A DNA stretch of 64,000 nt. Origin: Nocardioides sp. BP30. Lineage in GTDB: Bacteria; Actinomycetota; Actinomycetes; Propionibacteriales; Nocardioidaceae. Below, piece by piece: positions 22,492-45,405 of the stretch. The position numbers and the translations under genes are program-made. How positions within the stretch are numbered: the first letter of the stretch is position 1; every line of letters starts with the position of its first letter. Where the stretch lies: NCBI RefSeq assembly GCF_029873215.1, contig NZ_CP123620.1:1116001-1180000 (forward strand), in the 5' to 3' direction. The notes below the pieces were generated by a model, which did no database searches, had not been told where the DNA came from, and saw only the letters and a list, made by a program, of their open reading frames with translations.

Positions 22492-24111
<1,620 letters not shown>

Positions 24112-24323: not shown

Positions 24324-27300
24324 GTGCCTGACCCGTTGCTGCGTCATGCGGAGGCCCCCTCGCCCCGCACCCTGGTCGACGTCATCCGCGAGACGATCGC
24401 CCAGGCGGCGGACGAGCCTGCGCTCGACGCCGCCAACGGCGTGCTCACCTACGCCGAGCTCGAGGAGGCTGCCGAGAGCGTCGCGGTCGAGCTGAACGGG
24501 GCCGGTGTCGGACGCGGCGACAAGGTAGGCGTCCGGCTGGCCAGCGGCACCACCGAGCTCTATACGGCGATCCTGGGCGTGCTGCTCGCCGGCGCCGCCT
24601 ACGTCCCGGTCGACGCGGACGACCCCGACGAACGCGCCCGGACGGTCTTCGGTGAGGCCGGGGTGGCGGCGGTGATCGGCGCCGACCTGCAGATCGACGT
24701 ACGGCGACCCAGGCCCGCACGAGAGCCCGAGGACCCGGAGCCGGAGGACGACGCCTGGGTGATCTTCACCTCGGGATCGACCGGCAGGCCGAAGGGCGTC
24801 GCGGTGACGCACCGCAACGCGGCGGCGTTCGTCGATGCCGAGTCGCAGCTGTTCCTCACCGCGGAGCCGATCGGCGTGGGTGACCGGGTGATGGCCGGCC
24901 TCTCCGTCGCCTTCGACGCGAGCTGTGAGGAGATCTGGCTCGCCTGGCGGTACGGCGCCTGCCTGGTCCCGGCGCCGCGCGCCCTCGTGCGCAGCGGGGT
25001 GGACGTCGGACCGTGGCTCGTCGCCAACCGGATCACCGTCGTCTCGACGGTGCCCACCCTGGTCGCGCTGTGGCCGGCCGAGTCGCTGGCCAAGGTGCGG
25101 CTGCTCATCATGGGCGGCGAGGCCTGCCCGCCCGAGCTGGCCGCCCGGCTGCAGGCACCCGGCCGCGAGGTCTGGAACACCTACGGTCCCACCGAGGCGA
25201 CGGTGGTGGCCTGCGCTGCCCTGATGACGGGGGAGGGACCGGTGCGCATCGGTCTGCCGCTGGCCGGGTGGGACCTGGCCGTGGTGGACCCGGCGAGCGG
25301 CCGGCGGGTCGCCGAGGGGGAGACCGGCGAGCTGATCATCGGCGGCGTGGGCCTGGCTCGCTACCTGGATCCGATCAAGGACGCGGAGAAGTACGCGCCG
25401 ATGCCGACGCTGGGCTGGGACCGCGCCTACCGCTCGGGGGATCTGGTCGTCTACGACCCCGAGGGCCTGCTGTTCGGCGGTCGCACCGACGACCAGATCA
25501 AGCTCGGCGGCCGCCGCATCGAGCTCGGTGAGATCGACTCGGCGCTGCTCCAGGTCCAGGGGGTGGTCAGTGCCGCGGCGGCGGTGCGCAAGACGCAGGC
25601 CGGGAACAGCCTGCTGGTCGGGTACGTCACCGTCGACGCGAGCTTCGACCAGGCCGCCGCGCTCGCCCACCTCCGGGCCGAGATGCCGGCCGCGCTGGTG
25701 CCGCGCATCGCCGTGGTCGACACGCTGCCCACCCGGACCAGCGGCAAGGTCGACCGCGACGCGCTGCCCTGGCCGCTGCCCGCCCGGGCGGACGCGCCGG
25801 CGGGACTGAGCGAGACCGAGGCCTGGGTCGCCGAGCTGTGGAACGAGGTGCTCGGGGCAGCCGTGACCGACCCGCGGGAGGACTTCTTCGACCTGGGCGG
25901 CGGCAGCCTGAGCGCAGCCCAGATGGTCAGCCGTATCCGGGCGCGCTATCCCGAGGTCGCCATGGGCGACATCTACGACCATCCGCGGCTGGGCGAGCTG
26001 GCGGCGTACCTGGACGCGATGGGCGCCTCCGGCGCGATCTCGGACCGGGAGGTGCCGGTGGTGCCGGTCAAGACCCAGCTCGGCCAGGTCGTGGGCACGC
26101 TGCTGGTGCGCTGCCTGGCGGCGCCGCGCTGGCTGACCTGGCTCGCCGTGGGCTGCTGGTTGGCCGCGCGCGACGACGACCTGGCCGCGATCGGCCTGCC
26201 CGACCCCAGCCCGTGGCTGCTGGTGCCGGCCGTCGTGGTCTTCCTGACGCCGCCGGGTCGGATGCTGCTGGCGGCCGGGGCGGCCCGGCTGATCCTGCGC
26301 GGCATCGAGCCCGGCGATCACCCCCGCGGGGGCAAGGTGCACCTGCGCCTGTGGCTGGCCGCCCACGCGGTGGACGAGCTCGGCGCCCATGGGCTGGCCG
26401 GAGCGCCTCTGATGACGTGGTACGCCCGTCTGCTCGGCGCGCGGATCGGCGACGACGTCGACCTGCACAGCCTTCCGCCGGTCACCGGGATGCTGCGACT
26501 GGGCGCCGGGGCCTCGATCGAGCCCGAGGTCGACCTCTCGGGCTTCTGGATCGAGGGGGACGTCGTCCATCTCGGCAGGATCCGGGTGGGCGCCGGAGCA
26601 CGGGTCGGCGCGCGGTCGATGCTGCTGCCCGGTGCCGACGTGGGCGCCGACGCCGAGATCGGCGCCGGTTCCGCCGTCTTCGGTGCGGTGCCCGACGGCG
26701 AGTACTGGTCCGGCTCACCGGCCGCACGTGGCAGCCGCTCCGCCCGCGGGCCGTGGGAGGAGCGGGTGCATCGCAGCGGGCTGTGGGTGGGCCTGTACGG
26801 CGTGGCAGCGGTGGTGCTCGCCCTCTTCCCCGCCGTGGGCATCGCCGCCGGTGTCCTGGTCGATGTCGCGCTCGCCGGGCGGCCCGGCTCGCTCGGTGAC
26901 GTCGGGGCGCTGGTGGCGTGGAGCCCGGTGGCAGTGCTGGCCGGCTACCTGGGCCTCGCGCTGCTGATCCTGGTGACGGTGCGCCTGGCCGGTGCGCTGA
27001 TCAGGCCGGGCGTGCACGCGGTGCGCAGCACCGCCGGGTTGGCGGTCTGGGCGACGATGCGGGTGCTCGACGACGCCCGCACGTGGCTGTTCCCGCTCTA
27101 CTCCTCGATGCTCACCCCGCTCTGGCTGCGGGCGTTGGGCGCCCGCATCGGGCACGACGTCGAGGCCTCGACAGTGCTGATGATCCCGGGCCTGACCCAG
27201 GTCAACGATGAGGCGTTCCTCGCCGACGACACCCTGATCGGCGGCTACGAGCTGCACGGGGGCTGGGTGCGGGTGGAGCGGGTGAAGATCGGCAAGCGCG

Positions 27301-28205
27301 CGTTCGTGGGCAACTCGGGGATGGCGGCTCCCGGCCGCAAGGTGCCGAAGGCGTCGCTGGTCGCGGTGCTCAGCGCCGCACCCCGACGCAAGAAGGCCCA
27401 TGCCGGAGCCAGCTACCTGGGCTCGCCACCGGCGCCGCTGCGGCGTACGGCCGCCGAGTCCGACGCAGGCCGTACCTACCGCCCACCGCTGCGGCTCAAG
27501 CTCGCGCGGGCGGTGATCGAGATCTGCCGGCTGGTGCCCGCCACCCTGGGTGCCCTCGTGCCCGCGGCGGTGGGCTACCTGATCATCCGGTGCTGGCACG
27601 CCACGGACGTCGTCGTCGCGCTGGTGGTGGCCGGCCCGCTGCTGGCGGCCGCCGGCGCGGTCGCGGCGCTGGTCACGGTGGCGGCCAAGTGGCTGCTGGT
27701 GGGCAGGATGCGACCGGGCACGCACCCGTTGTGGAGCTCGTTCGTGTGGCGCAACGAGCTGGCCGACACCTTCGTGGAGGTCCTGGCCGCGCCATGGTTC
27801 GCTCATCCCGTCGCCGGGACCCCGGTGCTGAACCTGTGGTTCCGGCTGATGGGCGCGAGGATCGGCCGAGGCGTCTGGATCGAGACGCATTGGCTGCCCG
27901 AGACCGACCTGGTCGACCTCGGTGACGGAGCCACGGTCAACGCCGGCACGGTCGTGCAGACCCACCTGTTCCACGACCGCATGCTCGCCCTCGACACGGT
28001 CACCCTGCGCCGGGGCGCGACCCTCGGGCCGAACTCGGTGATCCTGCCGGCCGCCATCCTCGGTCGGCACAGCGTCGTCGGCCCCGTCTCGCTGGTGATG
28101 CGCGGCGAGTCGCTCCCCGACAAGACGCTGTGGATCGGAAATCCGATCGGCCCTTGGGCCGAGGAGGTCCAGGGGCCGATCGGAGGTCAGCAGCGGGTCA
28201 GATGA
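24324..28205 (+). CDS. Pls-type single-module NRPS (epsilon-poly-lysine synthetase-like)
   Basis: The 1293-residue protein has an adenylation domain (residues about 15-480: A3 IFTSGSTGRPKG, A5 NTYGPTEAT, A7 YRSGDL, A8 GGRTDDQIKLGGRRIELGEID, A10 Lys in SGKVDR), a thiolation domain with the 4'-phosphopantetheine Ser528 in DLGGGSLS, then six membrane helices interleaved with three tandem left-handed-beta-helix-like domains. Each of the three opens with a GARIG motif (about residues 700, 935 and 1175). Order and length match epsilon-poly-L-lysine synthetase Pls (about 1320 residues), in which the three C-terminal domains form isopeptide bonds without a thioesterase. GTG at 24324 follows GAAAGGG by eight bases. 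The product is unknown; the family is broad. Confidence 0.88.
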   Translation: MPDPLLRHAEAPSPRTLVDVIRETIAQAADEPALDAANGVLTYAELEEAAESVAVELNGAGVGRGDKVGVRLASGTTELYTAILGVLLAGAAYVPVDADDPDERARTVFGEAGVAAVIGADLQIDVRRPRPAREPEDPEPEDDAWVIFTSGSTGRPKGVAVTHRNAAAFVDAESQLFLTAEPIGVGDRVMAGLSVAFDASCEEIWLAWRYGACLVPAPRALVRSGVDVGPWLVANRITVVSTVPTLVALWPAESLAKVRLLIMGGEACPPELAARLQAPGREVWNTYGPTEATVVACAALMTGEGPVRIGLPLAGWDLAVVDPASGRRVAEGETGELIIGGVGLARYLDPIKDAEKYAPMPTLGWDRAYRSGDLVVYDPEGLLFGGRTDDQIKLGGRRIELGEIDSALLQVQGVVSAAAAVRKTQAGNSLLVGYVTVDASFDQAAALAHLRAEMPAALVPRIAVVDTLPTRTSGKVDRDALPWPLPARADAPAGLSETEAWVAELWNEVLGAAVTDPREDFFDLGGGSLSAAQMVSRIRARYPEVAMGDIYDHPRLGELAAYLDAMGASGAISDREVPVVPVKTQLGQVVGTLLVRCLAAPRWLTWLAVGCWLAARDDDLAAIGLPDPSPWLLVPAVVVFLTPPGRMLLAAGAARLILRGIEPGDHPRGGKVHLRLWLAAHAVDELGAHGLAGAPLMTWYARLLGARIGDDVDLHSLPPVTGMLRLGAGASIEPEVDLSGFWIEGDVVHLGRIRVGAGARVGARSMLLPGADVGADAEIGAGSAVFGAVPDGEYWSGSPAARGSRSARGPWEERVHRSGLWVGLYGVAAVVLALFPAVGIAAGVLVDVALAGRPGSLGDVGALVAWSPVAVLAGYLGLALLILVTVRLAGALIRPGVHAVRSTAGLAVWATMRVLDDARTWLFPLYSSMLTPLWLRALGARIGHDVEASTVLMIPGLTQVNDEAFLADDTLIGGYELHGGWVRVERVKIGKRAFVGNSGMAAPGRKVPKASLVAVLSAAPRRKKAHAGASYLGSPPAPLRRTAAESDAGRTYRPPLRLKLARAVIEICRLVPATLGALVPAAVGYLIIRCWHATDVVVALVVAGPLLAAAGAVAALVTVAAKWLLVGRMRPGTHPLWSSFVWRNELADTFVEVLAAPWFAHPVAGTPVLNLWFRLMGARIGRGVWIETHWLPETDLVDLGDGATVNAGTVVQTHLFHDRMLALDTVTLRRGATLGPNSVILPAAILGRHSVVGPVSLVMRGESLPDKTLWIGNPIGPWAEEVQGPIGGQQRVR

Positions 28206-28860
28206 TCCGTCCGGTGCGCACGGCTCCGGCGTAGCCGGGCGTCGCGGGCAGGATGATCTCGACCTTGGTGCCGGCCGCGCCGTGCAGGTGGGTGCTCCAC
28301 TTGCCCTTCTTGGTGGTCTTGACCTTGAACCACTTCTTGTACTTGCCGTGCGACTTCTTCTTGAAGACGAGCTTGACCTTCGCGGCGGGGGCGACCTTGC
28401 CCCACAGGTGCAGGCCCTTGGACTTCAGCGAGAAGCTGTGGGCGACCGGCACCGTGACCACGGCGCTGGTCGAGGCGGTGTAGCTCTCATTGCTGCTGGA
28501 CCGGTAGCCGCTGTAGACGATCCGGTAGCGGGTGGTGATGGTCGGCTTCACGTCGTAGAAGTCGGCGTACGTCGGCGAGGAGGCGGTGGCCACGTTGCGC
28601 CACGAGGTGAACGGGTAGGGCGCCGCCTGGAGCGTCACGGTCCCCGAGCCGCTGCCGATGTAGGACCCGTCGGCGGCCTTGACCTGGCCGGACAGGTCGA
28701 CGGTGCCGCCGTAGACGACGGTGCCGGAGACGGGCTGCAGGGAGCTGGTCGTCCCACTCGTGGTCGCTGCCTGAGCCGACCCGCCGGCGGCGAGTACGGC
28801 GGCAGGGGCCGCCAGCAGCGTCAGCGCGAGCGCGCGGGCGAGGGTGGTGCGCAGGGTCAT
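28198..28860 (-). CDS. Secreted lysine-rich beta-sandwich protein
   Basis: The 220-residue protein has a clear Sec signal peptide (RTTLARALALTLLAAPAAVLAAGGSAQA), then a region with the look of an Ig-like or bacterial surface beta-sandwich (VYGGTVDLSGQVKAADGSYIG, TRYRIVYSGYRSS). Its C-terminal half is strongly basic, with clusters such as KLVFKKKSHGKYKKW and KTTKKGKW. No enzymatic motif was seen. It converges on the Pls-type gene with an eight-base overlap of the two 3' ends and is divergent from the M1 peptidase. Any interaction with the Pls product is speculation. Confidence 0.75.
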   Translation of the reverse strand: MTLRTTLARALALTLLAAPAAVLAAGGSAQAATTSGTTSSLQPVSGTVVYGGTVDLSGQVKAADGSYIGSGSGTVTLQAAPYPFTSWRNVATASSPTYADFYDVKPTITTRYRIVYSGYRSSSNESYTASTSAVVTVPVAHSFSLKSKGLHLWGKVAPAAKVKLVFKKKSHGKYKKWFKVKTTKKGKWSTHLHGAAGTKVEIILPATPGYAGAVRTGRII

Positions 28861-28956: not shown

Positions 28957-30264
28957 ATGTCTTCTCTGCCGACCGCCGATCCCTACCTGCCCGGGCACGG
29001 CGACCCCTCCTGGGGTGCCACGCACTACGAGCTCGACCTCGACTACGACCTGGCCGCGAACCGGCTGGCCGGTACGGCGGTGGTCCGCGCCGTCGCCGAG
29101 CAGGACACCGACCGGGTGGTGCTGGACCTGGCCTACCTGCAGGTGCAGAAGGTCACCGTCGACGGCAGGCCGCCCGCGAAGTGGGCGCATCGCGACCATC
29201 GACTGGTGCTCACGCTCAAGCGCGCCCTCCGGGCGGGCGAGGCCTTCACCGTCCAGGTCAAGTACGCCGGTCGTCCGCGTCCGCTCGTGCTGGCTCCGCA
29301 CGGCGACGCCGGCTGGGAGGAGCTCAGCGACGGTGTGATCGTGGCCGGTCAGCCGCACGGGGCGCCGTCGTGGTTCCCGTGCAACGACCGACCCGACGAC
29401 AAGGCGCCGTACGCCATCTCGGTGACGGTCGCCCACAACTACACGGTGGTGAGCAACGGCCTCCTGGTCGGTCGGACCCGGCGGGGCAGCGGCGAGACGT
29501 GGCGCTATGAGCAGGACGAGCCGATGTCGACCTATCTCGCCACGGTGCAGATCGGCCGTTACCGGCTCGTCGAGGACGAGGGCGAGGGCACGCCGATCCT
29601 CGGTGCGGTGCCGGAGAGCGCCCTGGCCGGCTACACCCGTTCCTTCGGCCGCCAGCGGGAGATGCTCGACTACTTCACCGAGGCGTTCGGGCCCTATCCG
29701 TTCGGCCGGTACACGGCGGTGGTCACCGATGACGCACTCGAGATCCCGCTGGAGTCGCAGTCGCTGTCGACCTTCGGACGCAACTACCTCACCGGGCGCT
29801 GGGAGGAGGTCCGGCTGGTGGCGCACGAGCTCGCCCACCAGTGGTTCGGCAACGCCGTCACGCTGCGGGCGTGGAAGGACATCTGGCTGCACGAGGGTTT
29901 CGCCTGCTACGCCGAGTGGCTCTGGTCCGAGGCGGGCGGTCACGAATCGTGCGACGTGCAGGCCCGACGGCACCACGCCAGGCTCGACCGGCTGGGCAAG
30001 GATCTGCTGCTCGCCGATCCCGGTCCGGCCCTGATGTTCGACGACCGGGTCTACAAGCGCGGTGCCCTGACCCTGCACGCGCTGCGGCTGACGGTCGGGG
30101 ACGAGACGTTCTTCCGGGTGCTGCGCACCTGGGTGGCCCGGCACGAGGGAGGCACCGTCACGACCGCCGACTTCGAGGCGTTGGCCGCCGAGGTGGCGGG
30201 GCGGGACCTGGGCGAGCTGTTCGAGGCATGGCTGCACCGGCTGCCGTTGCCGGCACTGCCCTGA
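28957..30264 (+). CDS. M1-family zinc metallopeptidase
   Basis: The 435-residue protein begins with the M1 N-terminal beta-saddle domain (GATHYELDLDYDLAANRLAGTAV), has the domain-1 segment SWFPCNDRPDDKAPY, and the catalytic site HELAHQWFGN (His, Glu, His) with the third ligand in LHEGFACYAEWL 19 residues on, followed by a conserved Tyr in FDDRVYKRGAL. It lacks the large C-terminal ARM-like domain of PepN, giving the short actinobacterial form. It has no signal peptide. A TAGCCT box ends nine bases before the ATG. It sits one gene away from the Pls-type synthetase, and known epsilon-poly-lysine producers carry zinc peptidases that degrade the polymer. Confidence 0.93.
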   Translation: MSSLPTADPYLPGHGDPSWGATHYELDLDYDLAANRLAGTAVVRAVAEQDTDRVVLDLAYLQVQKVTVDGRPPAKWAHRDHRLVLTLKRALRAGEAFTVQVKYAGRPRPLVLAPHGDAGWEELSDGVIVAGQPHGAPSWFPCNDRPDDKAPYAISVTVAHNYTVVSNGLLVGRTRRGSGETWRYEQDEPMSTYLATVQIGRYRLVEDEGEGTPILGAVPESALAGYTRSFGRQREMLDYFTEAFGPYPFGRYTAVVTDDALEIPLESQSLSTFGRNYLTGRWEEVRLVAHELAHQWFGNAVTLRAWKDIWLHEGFACYAEWLWSEAGGHESCDVQARRHHARLDRLGKDLLLADPGPALMFDDRVYKRGALTLHALRLTVGDETFFRVLRTWVARHEGGTVTTADFEALAAEVAGRDLGELFEAWLHRLPLPALP

Positions 30265-45051: not shown

Positions 45052-45405
45052 GTGAGCGTCCTGGGGATCGGCATCGACGTGTGCGACATCGAGCGGTTCG
45101 GAGCGTCGCTGCAGCGCACGCCGGCTCTGGCGGCCAAGCTCTTCGTCGGTGACGAGCTGGGTCGCCCGGTCTCGTCGCTGGCCGCGCGGTTCGCCGCCAA
45201 GGAGGCCCTCGCCAAGGCGCTCGGCGCTCCCGCGGGCCTGGAGTGGCACGATGCCGAGGTCGTCTGCGAGGAGTCCGGCCGACCCCGGTTCGAGCTGCGG
45301 GGGACGGTCGCCGCGGCGGCCGACGCCGCCGGCGTACGGTCGGTGCACCTGTCGCTGTCGCACGATGCGGGGGTGGCCTCCGCCATGGTGGTGCTGGAGG
45401 ACTGA
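45052..45405 (+). CDS. acpS: Holo-[acyl-carrier-protein] synthase
   Basis: The 117-residue protein starts [15 protein letters not shown], with the Mg-binding Asp, and has the second signature [14 protein letters not shown] with the catalytic Glu/Lys. AcpS transfers 4'-phosphopantetheine from CoA to ACP for fatty acid synthesis. The GTG at 45052 lies right after the 22-base repeats, with no clear Shine-Dalgarno sequence. Whether AcpS or a separate Sfp-type transferase activates the thiolation domain of the Pls-type protein is not known from this window. Confidence 0.95.

Follow-up and report, generated by a model that had tools for sequence, protein, structure and literature searches.

Introduction

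In Streptomyces albulus, the gene right after pls, which encodes the epsilon-poly-L-lysine (epsilon-PL) synthetase Pls, specifies PldII, described as an epsilon-PL-degrading aminopeptidase with effects on both self-tolerance and chain length (PMC9223678). In C. variabile a peptidase gene is likewise described in an operon with pls (PMC8117764). Many Nocardioides copies already go under the name Pls/PosA family at NCBI; searches of the open-access PMC literature, judged by titles and the opening of abstracts, gave no report of a Nocardioides epsilon-PL synthetase, and the part of PMC11294650 drawn on here places a polylysine-type cluster in a Rathayibacter strain and not in a Nocardioides one. 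Here we describe a locus of Nocardioides sp. BP30, located in a window of 64,000 nucleotides, i.e. the whole stretch of DNA that was analysed. The locus in all likelihood encodes an orthologue of Pls and, judged from its sequence, is predicted to make epsilon-PL.

The gene and its parts are as follows.

24324..28205, plus strand: pls, adenylation-thiolation-membrane polymerase of 1293 residues, GTG start, no internal stop
24387..25772, plus strand: adenylation domain, residues ~22-483, pocket DAESIGTVVK
25824..26012, plus strand: thiolation domain, residues 501-563, phosphopantetheine serine S528 in LGGGSL
26097..28148, plus strand: TIGR02353 membrane polymerase domain, residues 592-1275, with three membrane helix pairs and three beta-helix units

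Domain anatomy of the synthetase

The protein consists of an adenylation domain, a thiolation domain and a membrane part, in which six helices are combined with three beta-helix units in tandem, and has no canonical condensation or thioesterase domain. PMC10522769 describes such an anatomy for PosA and its homologues. This Pls-type architecture is beyond chance by far. The first-pass annotation, made from the letters of the stretch, had proposed the same order and length, and Pfam, TIGR02353, AlphaFold2 and BLASTP bear it out. Pfam finds the AMP-binding domain at residues 22-346, its C-terminal part at 403-475, the PP-binding domain at 501-563 and a single hexapeptide-repeat match. The NCBIfam model TIGR02353 ('Pls/PosA family non-ribosomal peptide synthetase') reaches 674.8 bits at residues 592-1275 against a cut-off of 423.1, and together with the best solved relative, 7WEW, it upholds the Pls-type assignment made earlier. 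In the source genome, a single contig of 4,278,108 bases, this is the sole full-length Pls match; three further matches are weak and limited to adenylation-domain positions. Several of the large ORFs overlapping the gene or lying around it have no Pfam match at all and are probably antisense frames.

The membrane part was modeled with AlphaFold2 (residues 490-1293, alignment of 33 rows; mean pLDDT 87.5, pTM 0.88). Pairs of long helices appear at about 582-657, 819-891 and 1056-1125, each followed by coils of short strands. The model resolves all six helices, whereas a plain hydropathy scan does not: there pair 2 is clear, pair 1 is weak and pair 3 is seen as one run. A Foldseek search of the PDB with this model gives 42 matches at E <= 0.001. 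At their head stand acyltransferases with a left-handed beta-helix, serine acetyltransferases for the most part; the best match has E 3.3e-5, and the whole-model TM-scores are low (0.08-0.13). Alignment of the three tandem units, which the first-pass annotation had recommended, confirms by BLASTP that they are mutually homologous, with E values of 1e-17 for C1-C3, 7e-10 for C1-C2 and 5e-7 for C2-C3.

Adenylation pocket and predicted substrate

The ten specificity positions were mapped by motif, following the PheA numbering, and are occupied by D198, A199, E202, S241, I262, G264, T286, V294, V295 and K475, that is, DAESIGTVVK. Among solved structures the closest relative is 7WEW, an epsilon-PL synthase adenylation domain (E 3.9e-182; 63.6% identity over 492 columns), presumably that of S. 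albulus Pls, and all ten of its pocket residues are the same. All 120 homologues listed, the best of 7986 matches, carry this code as well, and so do 79 of the 80 loci retrieved by likeness to 7WEW, the exception being Kocuria L047 with DAESIGTVIK. Of 20 Nocardioides loci 19 have it; the remaining one, L089, is a split match without a readable code. Such agreement is expected, because these sequences were fetched by similarity to lysine-type enzymes; the informative evidence is that the pocket equals that of 7WEW and departs from those of the paralogues. The paralogues were collected by a TIGR02353 family search over 12 genomes. Those of three Streptomyces genomes (L131-L133), about 35% identical to the studied protein, carry DFECLSAVTK, and the one from a Crossiella genome (L118) carries DFECLSVVTK. 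Another paralogue with an unusual pocket, L124, aligns in part only, its code ending in EYMGTVTK; it comes from the same Streptomyces genome (G195) as L005, whose Pls is the closest to 7WEW among the 80 loci.

Published pockets of other polymer synthetases are different. PosA, which uses ornithine, has DMEHNGTVSK and the epsilon-poly-beta-lysine enzyme DGESISVVNK, and position 2 is Phe in the diaminopropionate enzyme and Ala in lysine activators (PMC10522769). In the studied protein position 2 is Ala199, neither the Met of PosA nor the Phe of the beta-poly-diaminopropionate enzyme, and the code is not DGESISVVNK either: the ornithine and beta-lysine pockets each differ from DAESIGTVVK at four positions, and the diaminopropionate pocket at least at position 2. 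For diaminobutyrate the difference is one of description, as PMC8117764 describes the diaminopropionate enzyme and the two diaminobutyrate enzymes as having pockets substantially unlike that of Pls. Sequences with unknown pockets fall into three of the four groups of PMC10522769, and the part of that paper drawn on here puts none in group 2, the epsilon-PL homologues. PosA and 7WEW share 36% identity over the adenylation core (PMC10522769).

A maximum-likelihood tree was built by a quick search from 59 rows picked out of 260, with SH-aLRT values as the only support; 40 of the 56 inner branches are starred. In it the protein groups with P0002 (90% identical, full length) and then with P0006. 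The starred group around it holds Nocardioides rows, further relatives and one Brachybacterium, and lies deep among the lysine-pocket rows. The paralogues L131-L133 fall outside the lysine-pocket group, the root having been set by choice on five other-pocket paralogues, while L118, L145 (a second Nocardioides enzyme, see below), L047 and L124 sit on long branches with unsure placement. With three proteins from Streptomyces and Kitasatospora the studied protein shares 51.8-53.6% identity. The first-pass annotation had envisaged a tree with characterised synthetases; the rows used here are pocket-typed proteins and include no accession-numbered characterised enzymes.

These data bear on the product, which the first-pass annotation had thought might be a poly(amino acid) not yet described. 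Relatives in the family do make other non-alpha poly(amino acids) (PMC10522769, PMC8117764), and the pocket does not always fully dictate the substrate, so the enzyme could in principle polymerize ornithine, diaminobutyrate, diaminopropionate, beta-lysine or an unknown residue. We consider this highly improbable, given the ten-residue pocket shared with 7WEW and nearly all retrieved loci, its differences from the ornithine, beta-lysine and diaminopropionate codes and, by description, from those for diaminobutyrate, and the tree position among lysine-pocket enzymes. A new polymer is rejected on the pocket, the tree and the gene neighbour, a peptidase of PldII type. Because of these three lines we suggest that the product is, very probably, the known epsilon-PL.

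Bond-forming part and proposed mechanism

Near-invariant polymerase columns (>= 98.5% conserved, from residue 491 onward) were defined on 248 other lysine-pocket rows, some of them from shared genomes, and all 125 are kept in the studied protein. The first-pass annotation had named absence of the residues needed for bond formation as a sign against its assignment; as far as the alignment tells, none of these columns appears lost (0 of 125). The carrier serine S528 is near-invariant in the alignment set and belongs to the polar residues kept also in all nine paralogue rows, which include E1193, Q1212, H1214 and D1218. Three of these lie in the conserved stretch QTHLFHDR (residues 1212-1219) of the third beta-helix unit. 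Every one of the 246 lysine rows with a letter at this place has H1214, and so do all nine paralogue rows. In an alignment of the three units, F741 and Y975 correspond to it in the other two, and the equivalent place in the first unit varies between Tyr, His, Trp and Phe, with His in 72 of 249 lysine rows. We infer that a single acyltransferase-like site may have stayed strictly conserved in the single-chain pseudo-trimer, H1214 being the candidate base.

We suggest the following mechanism, as established for the family. The adenylation domain would activate L-lysine using ATP, and the activated lysine would be passed to the phosphopantetheine arm on S528. The membrane-embedded, trimer-like beta-helix domain would then repeatedly link the loaded carboxyl to an epsilon-amino group, offered either by free lysine or by the growing chain, and the polymer would end up outside the cell. 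The M1 peptidase encoded downstream most likely acts as PldII does in S. albulus, trimming or degrading the polymer and protecting the producer. What this Pls catalyses and makes, that the polymer is secreted and that the gene is expressed are all predictions of this kind.

Peptidase partner and distribution in Nocardioides

The partner gene lies on the same strand as pls and starts 751 nucleotides downstream of it, compared with the usual few tens.

28957..30264, plus strand: PldII-type M1 metallopeptidase of 435 residues, HELAH zinc motif at residue 290, LHEGF downstream

Among the 80 loci retrieved with 7WEW, an M1 peptidase is encoded downstream on the same strand in 69. It was not found in the other 11, at least three of which (L007, L048 and L054) stand at a contig end; in Kitasatospora aureofaciens L014 no M1 peptidase was found within its 17.4 kb. 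A split or trimmed pls match distorts the automatic estimate of the pls-peptidase gap in L027, L028 and L050.

The Nocardioides sample comprised 195 genomes, each at least 90% complete. As TIGR02353 at E <= 0.001 weakly matches 188 of these and 13 of 14 control genomes, only matches over the cut-off were counted; a polymerase domain was so found in 94 of 195 Nocardioides genomes and in one of the 14 controls. Each of the 94 also shows an M1 match that exceeds 480 bits; in 91 of them it starts on the same strand no more than 400 bases past the end of the polymerase match. G128 is counted here as adjacent, its gap being listed as 307 since the peptidase match begins at residue 68. An M1 match of this strength without a Pls over the cut-off is seen in two Nocardioides genomes: G168, a draft in 890 contigs, and G054, where (at C1:1623540-1626931) the pls polymerase match is in pieces and the neighbouring peptidase match unbroken.

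Some genomes hold more than one enzyme. Nocardioides G148 encodes, besides its usual copy L146, the divergent Pls-type protein L145 (44% identical, pocket DAESIGTVVK), with no M1 peptidase match found in its 17 kb stretch. Kitasatospora aureofaciens CPD02 (G200) has three lysine-pocket synthetases, L107, L120 and L130. An M1 match stands beside L107 only; L120 and L130 are short stretches, and the longer L014 and L033 of that species and strain show none either. In three Streptomyces loci (L105, L106, L109) and one of Kibdelosporangium (L117), ORFs of 876-1015 residues reach 727-847 bits with TIGR02353 without an aligning adenylation domain; in L105, L109 and L117, judged by eye, carrier-like sequence alone precedes the polymerase domain. 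It is possible that these four are polymerases served by a separate adenylation enzyme.

Inserted convergent gene and other neighbours

In this genome a gene convergent with pls overlaps its last 8 bases and thus breaks the compact pls-peptidase arrangement of its relatives.

28198..28860, minus strand: gene for a 220-residue protein

Judged by eye, the protein starts like a signal peptide and is rich in lysine in its C-terminal part; its only Pfam match is below the cut-off (E 0.1). An opposite-strand gene parts pls from the peptidase in three of the 94 Pls-bearing Nocardioides genomes, namely this one, G111 and G076 (L154, L155), where the counterparts are 58% (G111) and 50% (G076) identical; in the others the gap is too short for such a gene. 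Relatives of the protein match in 92 of the 195 Nocardioides genomes at E <= 0.001, these three included. It is conceivable, though we hold it to be unlikely, that in this small lineage a gene for a secreted lysine-rich protein has uncoupled the synthetase from its degrading peptidase, so that synthesis and trimming would be separately controlled and epsilon-PL of unusual chain length, or retained at the cell surface and bound with that protein, would result.

The convergent gene also bears on whether the synthetase might be an inactive or silent relic. Such decay would fit the gene standing between pls and the peptidase and the 101 of 195 Nocardioides genomes without a match over the cut-off, in many of which the gene is lost or lacking, and there is precedent in a related enzyme that is silent in its native host: according to the part of PMC8117764 drawn on here, neither C. 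variabile nor C. glutamicum carrying its pls gave detectable epsilon-PL under the conditions tried. Yet the reading frame has no internal stop, S528 and every near-invariant polymerase column are kept, the zinc motif of the peptidase is present, and the full-length relative P0002 is 90% identical. We regard a relic as extremely improbable and reject it, as no lost residue was found among the near-invariant columns.

The assignment as an epsilon-PL synthetase has to be weighed against several points. The tree has a chosen root, quick support values and no accession-numbered characterised enzymes; 11 of the 80 loci fetched by likeness to 7WEW have no M1 peptidase match; in this genome another gene stands within what is usually a pls-peptidase pair; and the locus may be silent, as the Corynebacterium results suggest.

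Upstream and divergent from pls (22492-24111, minus strand) lies a gene for an HtrA/DegP-type serine protease with a PDZ domain; an HtrA/DegP-like gene is also present in 4 of the 14 wider Nocardioides loci shown (L135, L142, L143, L146). The genes dat and ask, named as neighbours of the gamma-poly-diaminobutyrate synthetases in the Fig. 1C legend of PMC8117764, were absent from the neighbouring ORFs scanned, a scan that covered part of the neighbours. The genome has two ACPS-family (phosphopantetheinyl-transferase) matches. One, at 45064-45321 beside a glmS-like ORF, looks AcpS-like by eye, and the other, a 209-residue frame elsewhere in the genome, looks Sfp-type by eye, both calls resting on the motifs of these types.

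Significance and comparison with known systems

The gene found is very probably that of an epsilon-PL synthetase and not part of a locus for a new polymer. Close to half of the Nocardioides genomes in the sample (94/195) carry the family together with the peptidase. The genus thereby offers more natural variants of Pls, and this distribution suggests that epsilon-PL, an antimicrobial polymer, is a widespread and rarely noticed product of actinobacteria outside Streptomyces.

The locus resembles that of S. albulus Pls in domain order, length, the pocket DAESIGTVVK, the TIGR02353 polymerase domain and the M1 peptidase after it. It differs in sequence, sharing about 52% identity with L005, the closest stand-in from Streptomyces (92% identical to 7WEW in its adenylation domain), and in that the peptidase gene is not directly adjacent. 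As in S. albulus, where PldII is proposed to act in self-protection and chain-length control (PMC9223678), a metallopeptidase gene follows pls; here, however, 751 bases with an opposite-strand gene lie between the two. The C. variabile Pls is described as having diverged from the Streptomyces enzymes to a comparable extent, but its product was shown by heterologous expression, in work that used Streptomyces coelicolor M145 as a host (PMC8117764), whereas the product here is predicted from sequence. PosA, the delta-poly-L-ornithine synthetase of Acinetobacter baumannii, shares the architecture and, by the models of that paper, the polymerase fold; unlike the present enzyme it has the pocket DMEHNGTVSK and, in the part of PMC10522769 drawn on here, is described without obvious neighbouring cotranscribed genes.

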